Shown: piece by piece, positions 4,107 to 64,000 of the stretch | Layout of the letters: every line of letters begins with the position of its first letter | Numbering within the stretch: position 1 is the first letter of the stretch | DNA from: Rhodothermales bacterium | Lineage (GTDB): Bacteria > Bacteroidota > Rhodothermia > Rhodothermales > VXPQ01 | NCBI GenBank assembly: GCA_022821845.1 | Contig: JAJECT010000027.1 | Location: 62,001 to 126,000, forward strand | Reading direction: 5' to 3' | DNA: 64,000 nt | Position numbers and translations under genes: made by a program | The notes under the pieces: generated by a model | The model's database searches: none | Seen by the model: only the letters and a program-made list of their open reading frames with translations | Told to the model about the DNA's origin: nothing

Positions 4107-4201
4107 GGCCTCAGTTCGGAAAATCCAGACAATTAGCCGGAATCGCTTCAAGTACAGGGTTGCAGAGTGTCGCGCCACCTTCGGCAGCGCCTTTCGTGTG
4201 T

Positions 4202-4231
4202 AGTATACGTCGCCCGGCGCCAGGTTGTCAA
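4202..4231 (-). promoter_or_regulatory. Consensus sigma-70 promoter of ietAS
   Basis: On the minus strand, TTGACA (4226-4231) and TATACT (4202-4207) are separated by 18 bp, placing the transcript start near 4195 with a leader of about 90 nt before the ietA ATG at 4106. The match to the classical consensus is nearly perfect and rules out the upstream in-frame starts of ietA. The remaining stretch 4107-4438 holds only this promoter and the direct repeat. Confidence 0.7.
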
Positions 4232-4278
4232 GACCCCCGAGGAAACGCGAGGCTACAACTGCAGAATCCCCATCAAGG

Positions 4279-4371
4279 CGATTTTTCGCTGGCGGCCTCC
4301 CTTGCTGCATGGCGCGCACCGGCCCCGTTCTGCCCATAATAGACACATAACTCGCCGAAATATAACCCCAT
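4279..4371. repeat. Right copy of ~92-bp direct repeat
   Basis: The same orientation and nearly the same sequence as 1-92, differing by a few substitutions and single-base shifts. Similarity fades after CCCAT at about 4371. It marks the right boundary of the TA/ietAS block; the ordinary chromosomal genes begin at 4439. Confidence 0.85.
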
Positions 4372-6009: not shown

Positions 6010-7557
6010 ATGCATACCGACGCGCGAACCCTGGAGAACGACGCCCTGATCGAAGGCGACCTCTGCATCGTAGGCGCCGGCGCCGCCGGCATCAGCATGG
6101 CTATGGAATGGACAGGAACCTCCTCCACGGTCATTTTGCTTGAAGGCGGCGGGTTCCACTACGAATCGCAGATGCAGGCCCTCTATGCCGGAAAAAGCAT
6201 GGGCGATCCGTATCAGGTACCGCTAGAAGCCGCCCGGCTCCATTTCTTTGGCGGCACCACCGGGCACTGGGCCGGCTGGTGCGCGCCCATGGACCCTATC
6301 GATTTCGAAAAACGCGACTGGGTCCCCCATAGCGGCTGGCCGTTCCAAAAAGAACATCTCGACCCGTTCTATGAACGCGCGCACGCCTATGTAGAACTGG
6401 GGCCGTACGCATATGACGTAGCCGACTACGAAGCCCAGGACCCCACGCGGAAACGGCTGCCCTTCGACGAAGAAAAGATATGGACGAAAATGTGGCAGTT
6501 CAGCCCGCCAACGCGCTTCGGGACGCGGTACCGGGATGCGATTATCGATGCGAAAAACGTTCATCTTTACACCTACGCGAACGTAACGGAGATCGAAGCG
6601 AACGAGTCGGCGCGGGCCGTAACCGGATTGCGGACGCAAACCATCGACGGGAAGCATCACCGCGTTCGGGCCCGGCGCTACGTGCTGGCTTGCGGATCGA
6701 TCCAGAATGCGCGGCTCCTGCTGGCTTCCAATGCGCAGGCCCCCTCCGGACTGGGAAATGACCACGACCTGGTGGGACGCTTCTTCATGGAACACCTGGA
6801 GATGGGCGGCGCGCAGCTGATCCTGGCGAAGCCGCACCCTCTGCCTATGTACGCGTTCCGCGTGGGCGGGGAACGGCCACCCACTGGAGAATTGGCCTTG
6901 ACCGAGCAGGTTCAGCGGACGCATCGCATTCTCAACGGGACGACCTCGCTCCGGCCGGGGACCTTTCCCGAAGCGATGAGGAGTTTTTTTCAACGGTTTT
7001 CGGAAAGCGACCCCAGAGACTGGATAGGCGGCGACGAAGAGGAGGGGGAAGAGCAGCGGCCCCCATCCAACTGGCCCGCTACGCCGGTCAAAGGACGTCG
7101 CGATTATCGACTCCATTCGCGCGCCGAACAAATGCCGAACCCCGACTCCCGCGTCATGCTCAGCGCCGAAAAGGACGCGATGGGGGTGCCCTATGCCGAT
7201 TTGCACTGGAAACTGTCCGCGTTGGACAAACGGTCGATGCGCGCCCTTTTCGAAATGGCGGCGCACGAATTCGGGCGGACCGGAATAGGGCGGGTGCAAG
7301 TCCTGGACTGGTTGCTCGAAGACGATACCGGCTGGCCCTCCTTTCTGAGCGGCGGGTTTCATCACATGGGCACCACGCGCATGCACGAAGACCCCAGGCA
7401 AGGCGTACTGGACGCCAACGCAAAGGTGCATGGCGTCGGAAACCTGTACGTAGCCGGCGCCTCGGCTTTCCCCACCTCGGGAGCGCCCAATCCAACGTTA
7501 ACGCTGATTGCCCTAAGCTTGCGATTGTCAGATCACCTTAAGCAGGACATCCGGTAG
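6010..7557 (+). CDS. GMC family FAD oxidoreductase
   Basis: A 515-residue flavoprotein of the glucose-methanol-choline family. The FAD dinucleotide motif VGAGAAG lies at residues 22-28. The family C-terminal block includes the catalytic-site HHMGTTRM and NLYVAGASAFPTSGAPNPTLT. The sequence resembles sugar or gluconate-type dehydrogenases that pass electrons to a cytochrome rather than oxygen-using oxidases, but no cytochrome gene is adjacent. It lacks its own export signal and probably hitch-hikes with the small subunit encoded just upstream. The start at 6010 was chosen because the in-frame sequence before it overlaps the small subunit gene. Confidence 0.88.
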   Translation: MHTDARTLENDALIEGDLCIVGAGAAGISMAMEWTGTSSTVILLEGGGFHYESQMQALYAGKSMGDPYQVPLEAARLHFFGGTTGHWAGWCAPMDPIDFEKRDWVPHSGWPFQKEHLDPFYERAHAYVELGPYAYDVADYEAQDPTRKRLPFDEEKIWTKMWQFSPPTRFGTRYRDAIIDAKNVHLYTYANVTEIEANESARAVTGLRTQTIDGKHHRVRARRYVLACGSIQNARLLLASNAQAPSGLGNDHDLVGRFFMEHLEMGGAQLILAKPHPLPMYAFRVGGERPPTGELALTEQVQRTHRILNGTTSLRPGTFPEAMRSFFQRFSESDPRDWIGGDEEEGEEQRPPSNWPATPVKGRRDYRLHSRAEQMPNPDSRVMLSAEKDAMGVPYADLHWKLSALDKRSMRALFEMAAHEFGRTGIGRVQVLDWLLEDDTGWPSFLSGGFHHMGTTRMHEDPRQGVLDANAKVHGVGNLYVAGASAFPTSGAPNPTLTLIALSLRLSDHLKQDIR

Positions 7558-55917: not shown

Positions 55918-56006
55918 TTACATGCTACGGACGGGCGCCGGGCGAATGATTCCCGGCGGAATATTTGCGCTATACACAATCACACTATACGAGAGAGAGG
56001 CAGACT

Positions 56007-57701
56007 ATGGCCGCACCGTACAGAGAACTCATCCAGAATATACGACTCGCATTTCCCCAGCCGACTTCTGATCGGATTCACGATTCGTATCTGGTGCATT
56101 CGTTCATGAATGCGCTGAACCAGGTGGACGCCCTGAAAATGCACTTGCCCATGCTCGGCGCCGTCGTGGAGCCGAACTACGAGGAAGCCCGCCATGCCGG
56201 ATTGCCGAGCGACATGTCCTCCGTGGAGGAGGTAACGTCCGAACTCGTGGGCTACCTGCGGGGCATGACCGTCGTGGGACATCCGCGAACGCAGCAGAAC
56301 GTCATTTGCCCGCCCACCATCCCCAGCGTGATCGGGGTGTTGCTCGCCGCCCTGCACAATCCGAACCTGGGGTGGGACGAACACAGCCGCCTTTTCGCGC
56401 TGGCCGAGGTCGAAGCCGCCGGCATTACGGCGGGCCTCATCGGCTACGATCAGGAACAGGCGGCGGGCCTGTTCACGTTCGGCGGCACGGGCACGTCGCT
56501 GTACGGCATCCGAATCGGCCTGGAAAAAGCCTGCCCGGGCAGTTTGCGGCGCGGATTGTCCGAAGAAGCCGTGCTGTTCGTGGCGGATACGGGGCATTAC
56601 TGCGCGTACAGCATTGCCGGATGGATCGGGATGGGATCGGACCAGGTGGTCTCCATTCCCACCACCCCCGAAAACGAAATAGACCTGCGCCTGCTGGAAG
56701 AAGCGGCCCGCAAGGCGCTCAAGGACGGCAAAAAGATTGCCGCCTTCATCGCCACCATGGGAAGCACCGATGCGTTCGGCGTGGACGACCTGCGGGCCAT
56801 CGTGGCGCTGCGGGATACGCTGGTCGAGGAATTCGACCTCCCCTACCGCCCGCACGTACACGCCGACGCGGTCATCGGATGGGCCTGGTCCGTCTTCAAC
56901 GACTACGATTTCGAGAAAAACGAACTGGGCTTTCGGCCCCGGACGCTGCGGGCGCTTGCAGGGGCCTGCCGGCAGATACGCCACCTCCCGCTCGCCGATT
57001 CCGTGGGCGTCGATTTTCACAAGACCGGCTTTACGCCGTATATATCCAGCCTCATTCTGGTCAAGGACTACAAAGACCTCCGCCTGCTGAAACGCGACCG
57101 CGAACTGATGCCCTACCTCTATCATTTCGGGGAATACAAGCCGGGCATGTACACGCTGGAAACCTCCCGATCCGGGGCAGGGCCCATGGCGGCGCTCGCC
57201 AATTACCAGTTGCTGGGCGTACAGGGCATACGCGCCCTGATAGGACATCTCGTGGAAATGGCGCAGTTGCTGCGCGAGCACCTCGAAGGACACGAGGGCG
57301 CCATTGTGCTGAATCGGGATAATTTCGGGCCGGTCACGCTATTCCGGGTGTATCCGCCCGGCAAGGAAGTCCTCACCACGTTCACGAACAGGCGAAAGGA
57401 ATTTACGGATCCGGCCTGCCGGGACGCCATGCTGGCCTACAACGACTACAACCGGAAGGTCTCCGCGTATGTGCACAAGGAAGCCATGGCGGGGCGGGGC
57501 GTGTTGCTTTCCCTAACGGACTGCTACCGGCACACGACCTACGGAGAACCCGTCGTGGCCATGAAATCCTACATCATGTCCCCCTTCGTGGACGAGGAAA
57601 GCGTGGAAATCATCGTGGACAAAGTGCTGGAGGCGCGCGAACGGCTGCGCCAGGAAGCCGCCGCCGACAAAAACCAGAAGATGCTGCACTGGTTTGCTTA
57701 G
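56007..57701 (+). CDS. PLP-dependent group II amino acid decarboxylase
   Basis: A 564-residue pyridoxal-phosphate enzyme of the glutamate/aromatic-amino-acid decarboxylase family. Landmarks are GTSLYGIRIGLEKA in the large domain, DTGHYCAYSIAGWIGMG (His stacking on PLP), HVHADAVIGWAW (PLP-binding Asp) and the PLP lysine in SVGVDFHKTGFTPY. The ETSRSGAGPMAAL block follows. The substrate is not determined (the length exceeds GadA and resembles the pyridoxal-decarboxylase group of unknown substrate). The start at 56007 (MAAPYREL) was chosen over 55965. Confidence 0.88.
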   Translation: MAAPYRELIQNIRLAFPQPTSDRIHDSYLVHSFMNALNQVDALKMHLPMLGAVVEPNYEEARHAGLPSDMSSVEEVTSELVGYLRGMTVVGHPRTQQNVICPPTIPSVIGVLLAALHNPNLGWDEHSRLFALAEVEAAGITAGLIGYDQEQAAGLFTFGGTGTSLYGIRIGLEKACPGSLRRGLSEEAVLFVADTGHYCAYSIAGWIGMGSDQVVSIPTTPENEIDLRLLEEAARKALKDGKKIAAFIATMGSTDAFGVDDLRAIVALRDTLVEEFDLPYRPHVHADAVIGWAWSVFNDYDFEKNELGFRPRTLRALAGACRQIRHLPLADSVGVDFHKTGFTPYISSLILVKDYKDLRLLKRDRELMPYLYHFGEYKPGMYTLETSRSGAGPMAALANYQLLGVQGIRALIGHLVEMAQLLREHLEGHEGAIVLNRDNFGPVTLFRVYPPGKEVLTTFTNRRKEFTDPACRDAMLAYNDYNRKVSAYVHKEAMAGRGVLLSLTDCYRHTTYGEPVVAMKSYIMSPFVDEESVEIIVDKVLEARERLRQEAAADKNQKMLHWFA

Positions 57702-57841: not shown

Positions 57842-57870
57842 TTGACGGGTTAAATTAAAAATGCTATATT
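57842..57870 (+). promoter_or_regulatory. Sigma-70 promoter of the AAA_14 fusion gene
   Basis: TTGACG (57842-57847) and TATATT (57865-57870) are separated by exactly 17 bp in a very AT-rich region. Transcription would start near 57877, about 27 nt before the ATG at 57904. Confidence 0.75.
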
Positions 57871-57903: not shown

Positions 57904-60234
57904 ATGATTTACCGAAATCTGGCTGCCCAGCTTGCCGGCGCGGCAACCCGAGCGCCTGCGATCACGCTTACCGGACCCCGGCAGAGCGGGAAAACGACCC
58001 TGTCCCGGTCGGTCTTTCCCGAACACCCGTACGTAAACCTCGAATCTCTGGACGAACGAGCCTTTGCGAAAGGCGACCCCCGGGGATTTCTGGCGCAATT
58101 CCCGGAGGGGGCCATCCTCGACGAGGTACAGCGCGCCCCCAATCTTTTCTCCTATCTGCAAGGCATTATCGACAATGACCCGGCCCCCGGCCGCTGGATA
58201 CTCAGCGGATCGCAAAATTTTGCCCTGCTGGCGTCAATCAGTCAGTCTTTGGCCGGGCGGACGGAGGTGCACCAGCTGCTGCCACTGACCTGGGACGAAA
58301 TATTGCGCTTCCCCGCCCCTCCCGCAACCCTTGCAGAGGCCCTGTTCAGCGGAGGCTATCCTCGCATCTTCGACAAAAAGCTCGATCCGTCGGACTGGTT
58401 CCGCTCCTATGTCGCAAATTATGTGGAGCGGGATGTTCGAACGCTCAGCAATATCGGCAACCTCACTGCTTTTCAACAATTTGTGGCGTTGTGCGCCAGG
58501 CGTACGGGGCAACTGTTCAAATATTCGTCGCTGGCAAGGGATTGCGGTATTTCGCAGCCCACCGCAAAAGCCTGGCTCAGCATTCTGGAGGCGAGTTATA
58601 TCGCATTCCGCCTGCCTGCCTTCAGTTCCAACCTGAACAAGCGCCTGATCAAGATGCCCAAGCTGTATTTCTACGATACAGGACTGCTTTGCTGGCTGCT
58701 TGGCATCCGACAGCCAGAACATATTCTCTCGCATCCGCTGCGTGGCGAAATATTCGAAACGTGGGTGGTTTCGGAAATACTGAAACACCGTATCCATCAA
58801 GGTACAGGCACAAACGCCATGCATGGTCTCTCGTTCTACCGGGACCAACATGGCGCCGAAATCGATCTCTTGATAGAGCAACCGGATCGGCTGATTCTGC
58901 TTGAAGTCAAATCCACGGAAACGCCCTCGAAAAGCCCGTTTGCAAACATACGTCGCATTCGGCGGCATTTCGAGGACGCAGGCCACGCTGGCGATGCGGC
59001 GATAGCCTATGGCGGGGAAAATTTTCAGCAGCGCAGCGACGGGAAATTGATTCCGTGGCGAATGCTGCGAATGGCCCTGTTGCCGGATATCAAACCTGTG
59101 GTGCATGTCCTTGCGAATGGCGCGCCGCTCGCTGGCGCCAATGTGCAGGTGCAATTTCCCAACAAAACGTCAAAACATACGACCACTGACGAAAACGGGG
59201 AAGCGCATTTCGATCTATACGCCCGTGTACTTCCTATGACTGTATTTGTATCCGCTACAGGTTTCGCGGAGCAAAAGACAGAAAACTGGGTCCCCGCCGA
59301 ACGCGCGCTCCGTATTGATCTGGGGCCGAAGCACGACATAGAAACTGCGGTTTCCGAACTGAAGGATTACCTTGCCGAACCCCAATACAGGATTAAACTG
59401 TCGGACTTCGTCCAGGATACCGTTGAGCGCGTTGTAAAGGCGACGACCAGCGAGCGATTTTCTATACAAGCAGATAGCAGCCCGGAACCCACTACGGAGT
59501 CGGCGGCGGAACGTTTACGCAGGTACGAGGCGGCCTGCGAAACATTGCTGGCGATAGCGGTGGTTGGGGGCAATTGGGCAGAGGAGGAACACGATCCGAT
59601 ATGGAGAGATGCATTGCAGCGCCTTGATTTAAGGGCAAGGACAGGCGGTTATTCATTGTGGCGCGATTTGCAACGATATCCGGCAACGCTTCTCCTCTAT
59701 GCGCTGGGCTTGGGCGCCGTCAAGGCCAATCGACTGCGGTTCCTGGATCGCATGCTGAGGACGCCATTGTATAAAAACCCGCAGGAGGATATATCTGCCG
59801 TACAGGCGCTCGCGCCTTCCTGCCTGTTCGAGCATGGCGCGCAGGCGAAGCACATTCTGCAAGGCATGAATAAACGTCAAACGTCGCTGAACGCCCGCAT
59901 TTTCGACATATTGCAGCCCTATGCCGAACGCATTATTCCAGACCCTGATCGATATGCGTTGGCCTTCGACAAACTCGAAATCCTCATAACGCTGAACTAC
60001 GTCCATCAATTACCCGAAGCCCAGTATCGGGACTATCCCCCTCCCGGTCTTTTTACCTATCGCGACGATAGCAGAAAGCGCGTTTTTCGAGAGATCAGGG
60101 AGTCGCTCTCGGCAGATCAAGACGCATCCCCATTCGTAACGTCTGGAATTTTCGGAAGAACCGCAGAGGATTGCGGCAACGAACTCGCGCATTTAGAGCA
60201 ATTGGTTCAGGAGGGGCGCTGGTTGTGGTGGTAG
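57904..60234 (+). CDS. AAA_14/DUF4143 ATPase fused to Ig-like and helical C-terminal domains
   Basis: A 776-residue multidomain protein. Residues 1-130 form an AAA_14 ATPase (Walker A GPRQSGKT 24-31, Walker B ILDEVQ 71-76, sensor SGSQ 101-104). Residues ~165-340 are DUF4143, including a PD-(D/E)xK-like site: Glu319, Asp321, Glu334-Val-Lys336. Residues ~395-472 form a CarboxypepD_reg/Ig-like beta sandwich (HVLANGAPLAGANVQVQF...). Residues ~480-776 form a helical domain with WRDLQRYPATLLLYALGLGAV, a pattern I associate with C-terminal modules of defence or signalling proteins. Ordinary AAA_14-DUF4143 proteins stop near 400 residues. It has its own promoter and lies in a defence island. Confidence 0.8.
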   Translation: MIYRNLAAQLAGAATRAPAITLTGPRQSGKTTLSRSVFPEHPYVNLESLDERAFAKGDPRGFLAQFPEGAILDEVQRAPNLFSYLQGIIDNDPAPGRWILSGSQNFALLASISQSLAGRTEVHQLLPLTWDEILRFPAPPATLAEALFSGGYPRIFDKKLDPSDWFRSYVANYVERDVRTLSNIGNLTAFQQFVALCARRTGQLFKYSSLARDCGISQPTAKAWLSILEASYIAFRLPAFSSNLNKRLIKMPKLYFYDTGLLCWLLGIRQPEHILSHPLRGEIFETWVVSEILKHRIHQGTGTNAMHGLSFYRDQHGAEIDLLIEQPDRLILLEVKSTETPSKSPFANIRRIRRHFEDAGHAGDAAIAYGGENFQQRSDGKLIPWRMLRMALLPDIKPVVHVLANGAPLAGANVQVQFPNKTSKHTTTDENGEAHFDLYARVLPMTVFVSATGFAEQKTENWVPAERALRIDLGPKHDIETAVSELKDYLAEPQYRIKLSDFVQDTVERVVKATTSERFSIQADSSPEPTTESAAERLRRYEAACETLLAIAVVGGNWAEEEHDPIWRDALQRLDLRARTGGYSLWRDLQRYPATLLLYALGLGAVKANRLRFLDRMLRTPLYKNPQEDISAVQALAPSCLFEHGAQAKHILQGMNKRQTSLNARIFDILQPYAERIIPDPDRYALAFDKLEILITLNYVHQLPEAQYRDYPPPGLFTYRDDSRKRVFREIRESLSADQDASPFVTSGIFGRTAEDCGNELAHLEQLVQEGRWLWW

Positions 60235-60383: not shown

Positions 60384-62132
60384 ATGCTCACCAGGCTGAC
60401 CATTCGCAACTTCAAGCGCTTCGGCGAGGTGGATATCCCGTTGGGGAATCCCGTGGTGTTCATTGGACCGAACAACTCGGGGAAAACGTCCGCCATGCAG
60501 GCCCTTGCGCTCTGGGACGTCGGCCTGAAAAAATGGAATGAAAAACGTTCCGGGAAAAGCGCGCCCGAGAAGCGTCCGGGCGTTACGGTCAACAGAAGAG
60601 ACCTCCTGGCCATCCCTGTTCCCAATGCGAATTTGCTGTGGCGGGAGTTGCATGTGCGCAACGTACGAAAAGTCGATGGGCGGCAGCGAACGGACAATAT
60701 CCGGATCGACCTGGTCGTCGAGGGCGTCAGCCGGGACAAGGCATGGAAATGCGGCCTCGAATTCGATTATGCGAACGAAGAATCGTTTTATTGCCGCCCA
60801 TTACGGCTCGCCGAGGGCAAAACGCCGAACCGCATGCCCATTCCAGATGAGGCTGCGGCAACCCGGATCGCCTTTCTCCCCCCTATGTCGGGGCTTGCCG
60901 CCACCGAAACGCGGCTGGACGAGGGCGCGGTGAACGTTCGGGTAGGCGAAGGCCGCACGGCAGAGGTTCTGCGCAACCTGTGCTGGCGGGTTCTGAACGA
61001 GCGTCCCGATCTGTGGGAAAAAACCGTCGAGGACATCGACCGCCTCTTCGGCTCTCGGCTCAAAGCCCCTGTTTATATGCAGGAAAGGGGAGAAATCGTC
61101 ATGGAATACCAGGAGCAAGGCGTTCGTCTCGATCTGTCCTGTAGCGGACGGGGTTTACAGCAAACGCTGCTTATCCTGACCTACATGCGCGCCAATCCGG
61201 GCGCGATCATCCTGTTGGACGAACCCGACGCGCACCTGGAAATTCTGCGGCAGCGGCAAATATACGCGCTGATTACCGAGGTGGCGGCGGAACAAGGGAA
61301 CCAGATTATCGCCGCCAGCCATTCGGAAGTGCTTTTGAACGAAGCGGCCGACAGGGATACGGTTATTGCTTTCGTCGGCAAGCCCCATGTCCTTGGAAAC
61401 GGCCGAAGCCAGGTGCGCAAGGCGCTGAATGAAATTGGTTTCGATCAATACTACCAGGCCGAGCAGACCGGGTGGGTTCTGTATCTCGAAGGCTCGACCG
61501 ATTTGGCCATATTACAGGCATTCGCCAGGCGCTTGGGCAACGAGCGGGCGATCCATGCGCTGGCGCGTCCCTTTGTCCGATACGTTGCGGATCAGCCCAG
61601 GCAAGCGAGGCGTCATTATTATGGCCTGCGGGAAGCGTTGCCCGCACTCAAGGGCCTGGCCCTCTTTGACCGCCTTGACGACGAGCCGGCGGAACGCGGC
61701 CCGCTTCAATGTATCTTCTGGAAAAAACGGGAGATAGAAAACTATTTGTGCACCCGGGAAACGCTGGAAGCATACGCCCGCGCAAGCGACCTGACAACCG
61801 ATCCGGCGCCGCTATTTACCGCGGCGGAAACAGATCGGCGCGTTGGCGCCATGCGGGAAGCCATTGACGAAATAGAGGAGGCCATGGCGACGCTGGGCAA
61901 GGACTCCCCGTGGTCGCCCGACGCCAAGGCAAGCGACGATTTTCTGACGCCGCTTTTCAAAGCGTACTTCAAAAAACTGGGTTTGCCCAACATCATGGAC
62001 AAAAAGCAATTCCATGAACTGGCGGGCTATGTCCCGCAACGCGAAATAGACGCTGAAATCGGCGAAAACCTGAACGCTATCGCCCATGTGGCCGAGCGGG
62101 CAACATCCGCGGGCAACGGGGAAAACGCCTGA
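60384..62132 (+). CDS. OLD-like AAA ATPase with TOPRIM-type nuclease domain
   Basis: A 582-residue protein. The N-terminal ABC/SMC-like ATPase has Walker A GPNNSGKT (28-35), signature DLSCSGRGLQQ, Walker B ILLDEPDAHLE (Asp279-Glu280) and the His switch AASHSE. The second half carries TOPRIM-like acidic motifs: YLEGSTD (Glu369, Asp373), LFDRLD (Asp429, Asp432) and WKKREIENYL. This resembles OLD-family nucleases and other ATPase-TOPRIM defence proteins such as AriA/AriB in PARIS; which one is not clear. The ~90-residue tail after the TOPRIM part is unassigned. It follows the fusion gene on the same strand after 149 bp and may work with it. Confidence 0.8.
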   Translation: MLTRLTIRNFKRFGEVDIPLGNPVVFIGPNNSGKTSAMQALALWDVGLKKWNEKRSGKSAPEKRPGVTVNRRDLLAIPVPNANLLWRELHVRNVRKVDGRQRTDNIRIDLVVEGVSRDKAWKCGLEFDYANEESFYCRPLRLAEGKTPNRMPIPDEAAATRIAFLPPMSGLAATETRLDEGAVNVRVGEGRTAEVLRNLCWRVLNERPDLWEKTVEDIDRLFGSRLKAPVYMQERGEIVMEYQEQGVRLDLSCSGRGLQQTLLILTYMRANPGAIILLDEPDAHLEILRQRQIYALITEVAAEQGNQIIAASHSEVLLNEAADRDTVIAFVGKPHVLGNGRSQVRKALNEIGFDQYYQAEQTGWVLYLEGSTDLAILQAFARRLGNERAIHALARPFVRYVADQPRQARRHYYGLREALPALKGLALFDRLDDEPAERGPLQCIFWKKREIENYLCTRETLEAYARASDLTTDPAPLFTAAETDRRVGAMREAIDEIEEAMATLGKDSPWSPDAKASDDFLTPLFKAYFKKLGLPNIMDKKQFHELAGYVPQREIDAEIGENLNAIAHVAERATSAGNGENA

Positions 62133-62134
62133 AG

Positions 62135-62290
62135 AAACAGGCTGCGCCGGGGAGCCGGGCGGACGGATCGGTAACAATCTTTCAGAAAGGAGAACGCCTT
62201 GAAGACCCGGATGTCATGCCAAAGCTCCCGCTGGAGATGGAGGAGGTGTTCGTTTTCTTGCGCTACCTTGTACCCGGAAAATCTTTTCGC
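62135..62290 (+). pseudogene. Possible C-terminal remnant resembling a Uma2-type endonuclease
   Basis: In the gap after the ATPase gene, a plus-strand frame reads ...SVTIFQKGERLEDPDVMPKLPLEMEEVF, similar to the end of Uma2 (DUF820) restriction-endonuclease-like proteins. There is no start codon with a matching N-terminal part, and the frame runs on into sequence coding for ptuB on the other strand. It is judged a scrap; the family assignment is weak. Confidence 0.25.
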
Positions 62291-62895
62291 AAACGCTCGC
62301 AGACATCGGGTCGATCAGAAAACACCGTCATCCATACGGACCAAAAACCGGTGTGCTTCGCCAGTTTAAGAACATTATTGACATCGGTCGCTTCGCTCGC
62401 CAAACTTGCGTAAGCCTCCTCCGCTGCATTCCATGCCTCCCGGCGCTCTCGCCATCGTATGTCTTTCATTTCCAGGTCATTGCCAGGTCTGCGCCCAAGT
62501 CCCAAAAGGCTAAACAGATTCTGGGCTTTTTTGCGATTCGGGCCGGAAAGATCGTCTTGCACTTTGACAATTCCATCCGGGAAATAATCGAATGGACGCC
62601 AGTCCTCGTCATCGTCAGGCCAAGTATAACCAGCACGCGAAACATTTTTATCCCGTTTGATACTGTTACAATTGCGGCAAGCGAGAAGAAAGTTGGTCCA
62701 GTTCTCTTCCAGCGTAGGCGCACGCTTCTTTGGGACAACATGCTCCACGGCCAAGCCGTCTTTCTCGCGCTCGCAATAGCTGCAATACGCGCCCAAGCGC
62801 TCTATTAAATCACTCTTCGCTTTCCTGTAGGGACGGAATATCTTTTGCTGACCATTACCGTCTTCAGGCCACGCTCCCTTGTCTACGCGTCGCAT
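62263..62895 (-). CDS. ptuB: PtuB-like HNH endonuclease (Septu system)
   Basis: A 210-residue HNH nuclease. Zinc-binding CysxxCys pairs are in AYCSYCE (Cys38, Cys41) and ACRNCN (Cys73, Cys76), with the catalytic AVEHVVP (Glu51-His52) between them and Asn77 completing the motif. This is the PtuB half of the Septu anti-phage system, which cuts DNA when released from PtuA complexes. It directly follows ptuA (26 bp apart when started at 62895; a start at 62940 would overlap by 20 bp). Length is as expected. Confidence 0.83.
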   Translation of the reverse strand: MRRVDKGAWPEDGNGQQKIFRPYRKAKSDLIERLGAYCSYCEREKDGLAVEHVVPKKRAPTLEENWTNFLLACRNCNSIKRDKNVSRAGYTWPDDDEDWRPFDYFPDGIVKVQDDLSGPNRKKAQNLFSLLGLGRRPGNDLEMKDIRWRERREAWNAAEEAYASLASEATDVNNVLKLAKHTGFWSVWMTVFSDRPDVCERLRKDFPGTR

Positions 62896-62920
62896 GACAA
62901 TATCCTCTCTCTGTACCTCT

Positions 62921-64000
62921 CTATTCGCTCCAAGTCTCACGCGGGCGCTTCAAGCGGAGAAACGCAACATAGGCAGGGTTGTCCGCAAACGGTTCCTCTA
63001 ATCGATCAAGCTTGTCGCGAAGAACGCGGATAGCCCCTGAATCATCCATTGAAGTATTTTCAATAGCCCTGAAATATTTTTCCGCAGCGGCCACCATATC
63101 CTGAAAACGCCTGCTGCGCTGCGGCTGCTCGACACCCATTATATTCTCTGCCACATCCTCAATGCTCTGTTGATAAAGCGTTTCCGATTCTTCGTGCTCT
63201 GCATCCAGATTAATGACGCTGCCCTGTTGCGCCATGGACTGAATGATGAATGGCGAGTGGCTTGTGGCAATGAACTGCATATTGGGAAAGGTTTCGCGCA
63301 AATCGCTGACTACGCTGCGTTGCCATCGCGGATGCAAATGAAGATCGATCTCGTCAATCAACACCACGCCGGGAGTTTGGCGACAGGCGGCCCCATTCAA
63401 ATGCGGATTGAGCTGCGAGCAGCGCATGGCGATGTCGGCCGCAATGGCAGCCATGTTGCGTTGGCCGTCACTCAGCATATTGAACGGAAATCGCACATTA
63501 CCCGGGAAGGTTATTACGATATCGTCCTGGTCAAAATCGAAATATGCGTCCGTAGCATGATCGACGCAACGGACAATCGCATGAATCATCGCTTTCAGCG
63601 TTTCAAGCGTTGTGCCTCGTTGCGCCTGAATTAGCGTCAGGCGCTTCACCCATGCAACCAGATCGCGCGTAGAGGATCTAGGCGTAAGGCAATTTCTGTA
63701 TCCGGCGTACCGGGAAATCTTTCTGCCCGGATCAACGCCGCCAGCCAGCCTTTGCCGCTGTTCCAGCCAAAGTCTCCCGGTACCGTAAAAACTGACACAA
63801 GGAAAGATCACATCCTCGCCGTGGCGGCTTTGTTGCACCAGAGCATGTATTGCGTCCCGGATACTCTTCGCCGCGCCGTAGGTCGTATGCGAATTCGCTG
63901 TCCGCAATTCGCGCGCCCAGGTGAGCCGATTGGGGCCAACGGAACCATGCGCTGTCACAACAGCAGGGTAGTGTTCCTCAAAATGACCCGTTTCCGCAGT
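62921..64000 (-). CDS. ptuA: PtuA-like AAA ATPase (Septu system), N-terminus beyond window
   Basis: About 360 C-terminal residues of an ABC-type ATPase; the frame stays open to the window edge, so the Walker A P-loop lies outside. Visible are the signature FNMLSDGQRNMAAIA, Walker B GVVLIDEIDLHLHPRWQ and the switch His in ATSHSPFIIQ, followed by a helical tail (RSRRFQDMVAAAEKYFRAIEN). The order ATPase then HNH nuclease on the same strand is the Septu (PtuA-PtuB) arrangement. GTG at 63956-63958 is not the real start. Confidence 0.82.
   Translation of the reverse strand, partial: TAETGHFEEHYPAVVTAHGSVGPNRLTWARELRTANSHTTYGAAKSIRDAIHALVQQSRHGEDVIFPCVSFYGTGRLWLEQRQRLAGGVDPGRKISRYAGYRNCLTPRSSTRDLVAWVKRLTLIQAQRGTTLETLKAMIHAIVRCVDHATDAYFDFDQDDIVITFPGNVRFPFNMLSDGQRNMAAIAADIAMRCSQLNPHLNGAACRQTPGVVLIDEIDLHLHPRWQRSVVSDLRETFPNMQFIATSHSPFIIQSMAQQGSVINLDAEHEESETLYQQSIEDVAENIMGVEQPQRSRRFQDMVAAAEKYFRAIENTSMDDSGAIRVLRDKLDRLEEPFADNPAYVAFLRLKRPRETWSE

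Follow-up and report, generated by a model that had tools for sequence, protein, structure and literature searches.

What kind of protein results when an ATPase, a nuclease-like domain, a β-sandwich and a long helical tail are joined in one gene, and what might such a protein do beside known anti-phage genes? This question is raised by a gene in a Rhodothermales genome, found in the window, i.e., the whole stretch of 64,000 nucleotides that was analyzed (contig JAJECT010000027.1 of assembly GCA_022821845.1, positions 62,001 to 126,000). A first-pass annotation, made from the letters alone, had described a four-part fusion, and the gene is as it was described: a single unbroken open frame of 776 aa (57904-60234, +) in which Pfam and PADLOC matches delineate, in this order, an AAA_14 domain, a DUF4143 domain, an Ig-like domain and a helical domain. 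Our preferred reading, to which we assign a probability of about 0.6, is that the gene encodes a modular, single-gene anti-phage nuclease with a swappable C-terminal helical control module, both the defence function and the nuclease activity being predictions.

Regarding the first half of the protein, the AAA_14 P-loop ATPase domain (residues 18-134; 57955-58305, +) is recognized by Pfam (E 2e-24) and has intact Walker A (GPRQSGKTT, residues 24-32) and Walker B (ILDEVQ, residues 71-76) motifs. It is followed by the DUF4143 PD-(D/E)xK nuclease-like domain (residues 175-337; 58426-58914, +; Pfam, E 8e-51), which includes an HTH-like stretch (residues 215-225) and in which the PD-(D/E)xK set is also complete (E285, D321 and E334-x-K336), as had been noticed at first reading. 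Residues 2-363 match the PADLOC model PDC-S01 almost over its full length (model positions 12-393 of 422, E 2e-101). The Ig-like/CarboxypepD_reg sandwich (residues 396-473; 59089-59322, +) is supported by a Pfam match above the curated cut-off (CarboxypepD_reg, residues 404-472, 36.0 bits versus 32.3), by homologues in Rhodothermales and by seven strands, of modest confidence, in a full-length AlphaFold model. This model was used for the Ig strands only; with no more than three alignment rows to build on, most of its N-terminal half reaches a pLDDT of about 50 or less. The idea of a secreted protein, which the Ig-like domain brings to mind, was rejected, as no signal-peptide-like N-terminus is visible by eye and the Ig-like domain comes after the ATPase.

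The helical C-terminal domain (residues 478-776; 59335-60231, +), delineated by PADLOC, alignment, homologues and a tree, corresponds to the C-terminal half of PDC-S65 (residues 478-772 versus model positions 303-590 of 592, E 6e-53), and a second PDC-S65 model gives E 8e-43. A match of this domain to a known metabolic family would have refuted the initial description; the domain matches no such family but this predicted defence family. Pfam has no match in the last ~295 residues and, over the entire protein, none to STAND/NACHT families (the ATPase being AAA_14), to SIR2 or to DUF4062; a PDB sequence search with the whole protein returned no match.

The window genome is a draft of 45 contigs, and such a gene might be thought an artefact of assembly or frame. 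However, an independent genome of the genus, a Rhodothermales MAG representing a second species (G242, locus L026), encodes the same four-domain order, free of stops, with 86-88% protein identity in the ATPase and nuclease parts and 76% in the Ig-like and helical parts. This rules out an artefact, and we give this refuted reading practically no weight. The complete order was found in these two species only. In line with the initial statement that AAA_14/DUF4143 proteins usually end after some 400 residues, the DUF4143 proteins of Rhodothermales are mostly about 390-475 aa long, and the listed matches from 109 genomes include four frames of 575-779 aa that have additional domains at the C-terminus. 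A 656-aa DUF4143 frame (G236), considered as a fifth long case, was discarded as its added length is N-terminal read-through. DUF4143 matches number up to 14 per genome in other genera of the order and are absent from many genomes. The window genome has 12 of them in 2.8 Mb, with the fusion gene as the only one in a long frame.

The neighbours named by the first-pass annotation were all recovered. Upstream lies a PLP-dependent decarboxylase gene (55965-57701, +), which all six genomes of the genus possess and which adjoins a variable site. Downstream are the gene of a 582-aa AAA_15/AAA_21 (OLD/AbiEii-like) ATPase (60384-62132, +; Pfam and PADLOC), a defence-type neighbour, and the Septu genes ptuB (HNH nuclease; 62263-62940, −; PADLOC, E 3e-71) and ptuA (62921-64000, −; PADLOC), the latter running to 64219 past the window end, where it is complete at 432 aa. 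The PtuA-PtuB pair by which Septu is recognized consists of these neighbouring genes and does not include the fusion gene. Past the window end (L044:11431-15017), Septu is followed by tandemly repeated blocks that encode Uma2-like proteins and a small protein of membrane type ('MKNREWKDVIAFAVFLVTFAGLLFGFYN'). The fusion gene had also been credited with its own near-consensus promoter; a site TTGACG-17-TATATT with TG before the -10 element is present (57842-57870, +; 10/12 matches), and it is suggestive only, since chance sites are not negligible, a shuffled sequence of equal size yielding 1.9 sites at the lower threshold of 9/12.

Comparison within the genus shows how variable this site is. 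In the window, the decarboxylase gene is followed by the fusion gene in its helical version, the OLD-like gene and Septu. In a sister species (G241, about 95-97% DNA identity around the site), the OLD-like and Septu genes are present and the segment 57728-60261 is replaced by a 189-bp scar (L120, reversed strand about 7176-7366) which lies between the decarboxylase and OLD-like genes and contains pieces of the promoter region together with a 40-bp piece of AAA_14. We considered this genome as an empty site and rejected this interpretation, as the gene pieces show a deletion; the fusion gene was therefore lost in the sister species. In G240, of the same genus, the site is occupied by a version of the gene with another tail, of about 90 aa, without the OLD-like and Septu neighbours, while G243 and G244 have neither tail version. 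In G242, the helical version is one gene further from the intact decarboxylase gene, and immediately before the helical version lie 150 bp left over from the 3′ end of a decarboxylase gene (L074, reversed strand 4139-4293), which read as a vestige of the block's movement. Such variation at the decarboxylase-linked site is typical of a defence locus that is gained and lost.

The G240 gene is located directly downstream of the same decarboxylase gene as in the window and, like a gene of a genome from another family of the order (G147), encodes AAA_14-DUF4143-Ig with an unrelated tail of ~90 aa. Protein identity between the window and G240 copies is 82% over residues 1-174, 76% over residues 175-395 and 65% over residues 396-473, and then falls to 22%, i.e., chance level; at the DNA level, homology (79%) begins with the start codon and does not go beyond residue 472, where the Ig-like domain ends. 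The tail of the fusion protein has been exchanged at the decarboxylase-linked site. Moreover, the Ig-like domain and the 90-aa tail travel together: they end Schlafen/AlbA_2-HATPase_c_4 proteins across many Rhodothermales genomes, including the window genome itself (G000, contig 34, L087), where the Ig-like domain is 50% identical to that of the fusion, as well as DUF4062-HATPase_c_4 proteins. The 90-aa part, which no Pfam or PADLOC model matches, is found in a ParA-TIR protein from Sinorhizobium as well. Copies of this mobile tail, of the form 'GRLNPIRD..DRTYLYADNIAI', were seen in L087, L083, L104 and L078. The β-sandwich, regarded in the initial description as a peculiar linker for an ATPase, is instead part of a C-terminal tail common to several protein types of the order. 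The switch at residue 472 and the mobility of the Ig/90-aa tail show the window protein to be a chimera, in which two modular series meet where the Ig-like domain ends.

What, then, is the helical domain? The AlphaFold model of residues 478-776 is nearly all-helical (pLDDT 86.7, pTM 0.90), and a Foldseek search of this confident model against the PDB and a viral library found no relative (best E about 0.5). An alignment of 19 members contains 11 invariant positions, which include K, Y and YRI near the alignment start and, within the RYPATLLLYALGLG core that the first-pass annotation had pointed out, P, Y and G. PDC-S65 is SIR2-like in its N-terminal half, as seen in homologues in which SIR2_2 precedes this helical domain, and a scan of GTDB genomes retrieved 18 loci: 14 SIR2 fusions (one ended by a contig edge), two fusions to caspase-like proteases (Peptidase_C14), one effectorless copy (L039) adjoining a GmrSD-like gene, and the second AAA_14-DUF4143 fusion. 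Plasmids carry SIR2 fusions in actinobacteria, proteobacteria and haloarchaea, as well as fusions to a caspase-like domain in Pseudoalteromonas, to TIR (TIR_2) in Rhodococcus and to DUF4062 in Nostoc. The domain is C-terminal in every fusion and is hence found behind five effector types, four of them characteristic of programmed death (SIR2, caspase-like, TIR and DUF4062) and the fifth being AAA_14-DUF4143, and in the partner enzymes the SIR2 motifs (GSGVS, TTNFD, H/NGDY) and the caspase His/Cys motifs are mostly retained. Downstream of the gene for the helical domain, here a DUF4062 fusion or its remnant, two Nostoc plasmids encode a macro-domain protein, for which a link to ADP-ribose products is conceivable (L066:8929-9786 and L067:10156-11028). 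The domain is scarce and patchy (2/247 and 7/398 genomes in two phylum samples), with a single match in the window genome and none in viral contigs. The latter contain one tailless AAA_14-DUF4143 protein (63% identity) adjoining a recombinase-like gene, and phage records gave no match.

A tree of 35 copies groups the two AAA_14-DUF4143 copies at 100/100 and nests them in a clade that is supported at 99/97 and whose remaining members are SIR2 fusions and the effectorless copy; at least six partner changes are needed over this tree, whose deep forks and long branches are unsure. The simplest reading of these sequences is that the helical domain moved from a SIR2-type protein to an AAA_14-DUF4143 chassis. 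A broader proposal, which we hold tentatively and at somewhat less than even odds, is that the domain is a portable infection sensor moved by recombination among NADases (SIR2, TIR, DUF4062), caspase-like proteases and an ATP-gated nuclease, with the exchange in Rhodothermales taking place at a defined joint, where the Ig-like domain ends. If this were true, a single trigger could be coupled to suicide responses of very different kinds.

The constant C-terminal position of the domain and the effectorless copy next to a GmrSD-like gene (L039) are also compatible with an oligomerization or docking module, which would tether the effectors to each other or to a common partner while another protein detects the phage. 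Homotypic contacts have been put forward as the mode of action of effector-associated domains in conflict systems (PMC7159879). However, the single match in the window genome makes a homotypic partner not evident, most homologues are lone genes without a constant adjacent partner, and the scar in G241 as well as the variant in G240 depict a gene that changes alone. We therefore judge docking unlikely and retain it as the main rival. The range of partners likewise bears on a reading outside defence, by which AAA_14-DUF4143 proteins would be selfish or regulatory ATPases and the tail would only alter localization or stability. The 12 DUF4143 genes of the window genome would suit it, and we found no proven activity of a PDC-S01 member; yet a tail common to SIR2, TIR and caspase-like effectors and located in defence loci argues against it, to the point that we consider it highly improbable.

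The genomic surroundings of the homologues were the second check proposed at the outset, and they did not refute the initial description. A recognized or candidate defence gene lies within three genes in 11/16 of the GTDB loci with readable flanks, a raw count in which some defence assignments were made by reading the sequence. In Dechloromonas, a SIR2-helical gene is inserted in a type I restriction-modification (R-M) operon, with the HsdM and specificity genes plus a PDC-S11 gene on one side and HsdR on the other (L029:5307-14031). In Paramagnetospirillum caucaseum, PglZ and BrxL are encoded just upstream of a SIR2-helical gene (L032:4427-10888) that is apparently at the end of a BREX operon. 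Further neighbours are HsdS in two loci, a second HsdR, a DNA methylase, and HamB-like, HmaC, GmrSD-like and PDC-S21 genes; the two GTDB loci with caspase fusions have no recognizable defence gene within three genes. On a Streptomyces plasmid (L068:7071-16873), a few genes separate a SIR2-helical gene from a CRISPR-Cas locus of type I-C. These locations inside R-M operons and beside BREX genes, and that of the window gene beside Septu and an OLD-like gene, could mean that the helical domain guards a co-resident restriction system or its state, the nuclease firing once this first line is inhibited. Neighbours vary from locus to locus, however, neither the window gene nor its G240 counterpart adjoins an R-M gene, and several homologues have no defence gene nearby, which leaves a guard function improbable, although slightly less so than a role outside defence.

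The preferred reading, a modular anti-phage nuclease, draws on the observed domains and motifs, the conservation in two species, the module common to five effectors, the exchange of tails, the loss in the sister species and the defence neighbourhoods. The AAA_14 and DUF4143 half would be the effector chassis, the Ig-like sandwich the joint, and the helical domain an interchangeable control module, probably a sensor or adaptor, that would hold the effector inactive until an infection cue. This cue might be a phage component or the fact that another defence in the same cell, for instance restriction-modification, has been lost. The ATPase would then change state or oligomerize, ATP binding or hydrolysis would license the DUF4143 nuclease, and DNA cleavage would stop the phage or kill the infected cell. 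For the fusion protein we infer tail sensing, its cue, ATP gating, DNA cleavage and cell death by analogy with single-protein systems that combine C-terminal recognition with an N-terminal killer enzyme, such as Swarozyc (PMC13174449). The sensor role put forward by the first-pass annotation thus stands as a prediction that fits the swapping of the domain among suicide-type effectors.

Several known systems invite comparison. PDC-S01, reported to rank fourth in frequency among prokaryotic defence genes, awaits experimental validation, as do most PDC-type candidates, which were found by guilt-by-embedding (PMC12988326). The fusion protein shares with it a near full-length model match and the same ATPase and PD-(D/E)xK motifs; ordinary members, however, end at about 390-475 aa, whereas the fusion adds the Ig-like and 300-aa helical domains. 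With PDC-S65, for which we found no paper under this name, it shares the C-terminal helical half, the window copy being nested among SIR2 fusions, but AAA_14-DUF4143-Ig replaces the SIR2 half, so that the fusion is not a PDC-S65 member. The G240 and G147 proteins have the same AAA_14-DUF4143-Ig chassis but the short unrelated tail. PrrC/RloC-type nucleases are suicide effectors tied to type I R-M, and the SIR2-helical protein in the Dechloromonas restriction operon recalls this arrangement; nevertheless, the nuclease and the domains are others, and the helical-domain proteins contain no anticodon nuclease. Swarozyc likewise unites an effector and a C-terminal recognition domain in one protein, and the Nostoc relative of the helical domain is fused to DUF4062, reported to be a TIR-like NADase defending against phage (PMC13174449). 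The fusion lacks the DUF4062 NADase domain, and its tail is a nearly all-helical domain of ~300 aa, whereas the auxiliary domain of Swarozyc has an HTH/winged fold and binds the phage portal (PMC13174449). As for STAND/NLR-type (Avs-like) proteins, the fusion lacks their arrangement of a STAND NTPase with a repeat sensor behind it, its ATPase being AAA_14, and the comparison is one of working only.

The suggestion of an undescribed anti-phage system is hence upheld in part: the fusion, the exchange of tails and the five-effector series are undescribed in the literature that we found, while both halves are already single-gene candidates in PADLOC. The fusion is a kind of modular effector-plus-recognition defence protein and not a new category. 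That a PDC-S01 part occupies the slot held elsewhere by SIR2, TIR or caspase-like killers independently supports an effector role of AAA_14-DUF4143. Moreover, with a common C-terminal module, the trigger becomes searchable through any of the five effector types, and the window and G240 genes form a natural pair for a domain swap. More generally, this gene and its relatives suggest that anti-phage proteins have in common interchangeable, probably infection-sensing modules.
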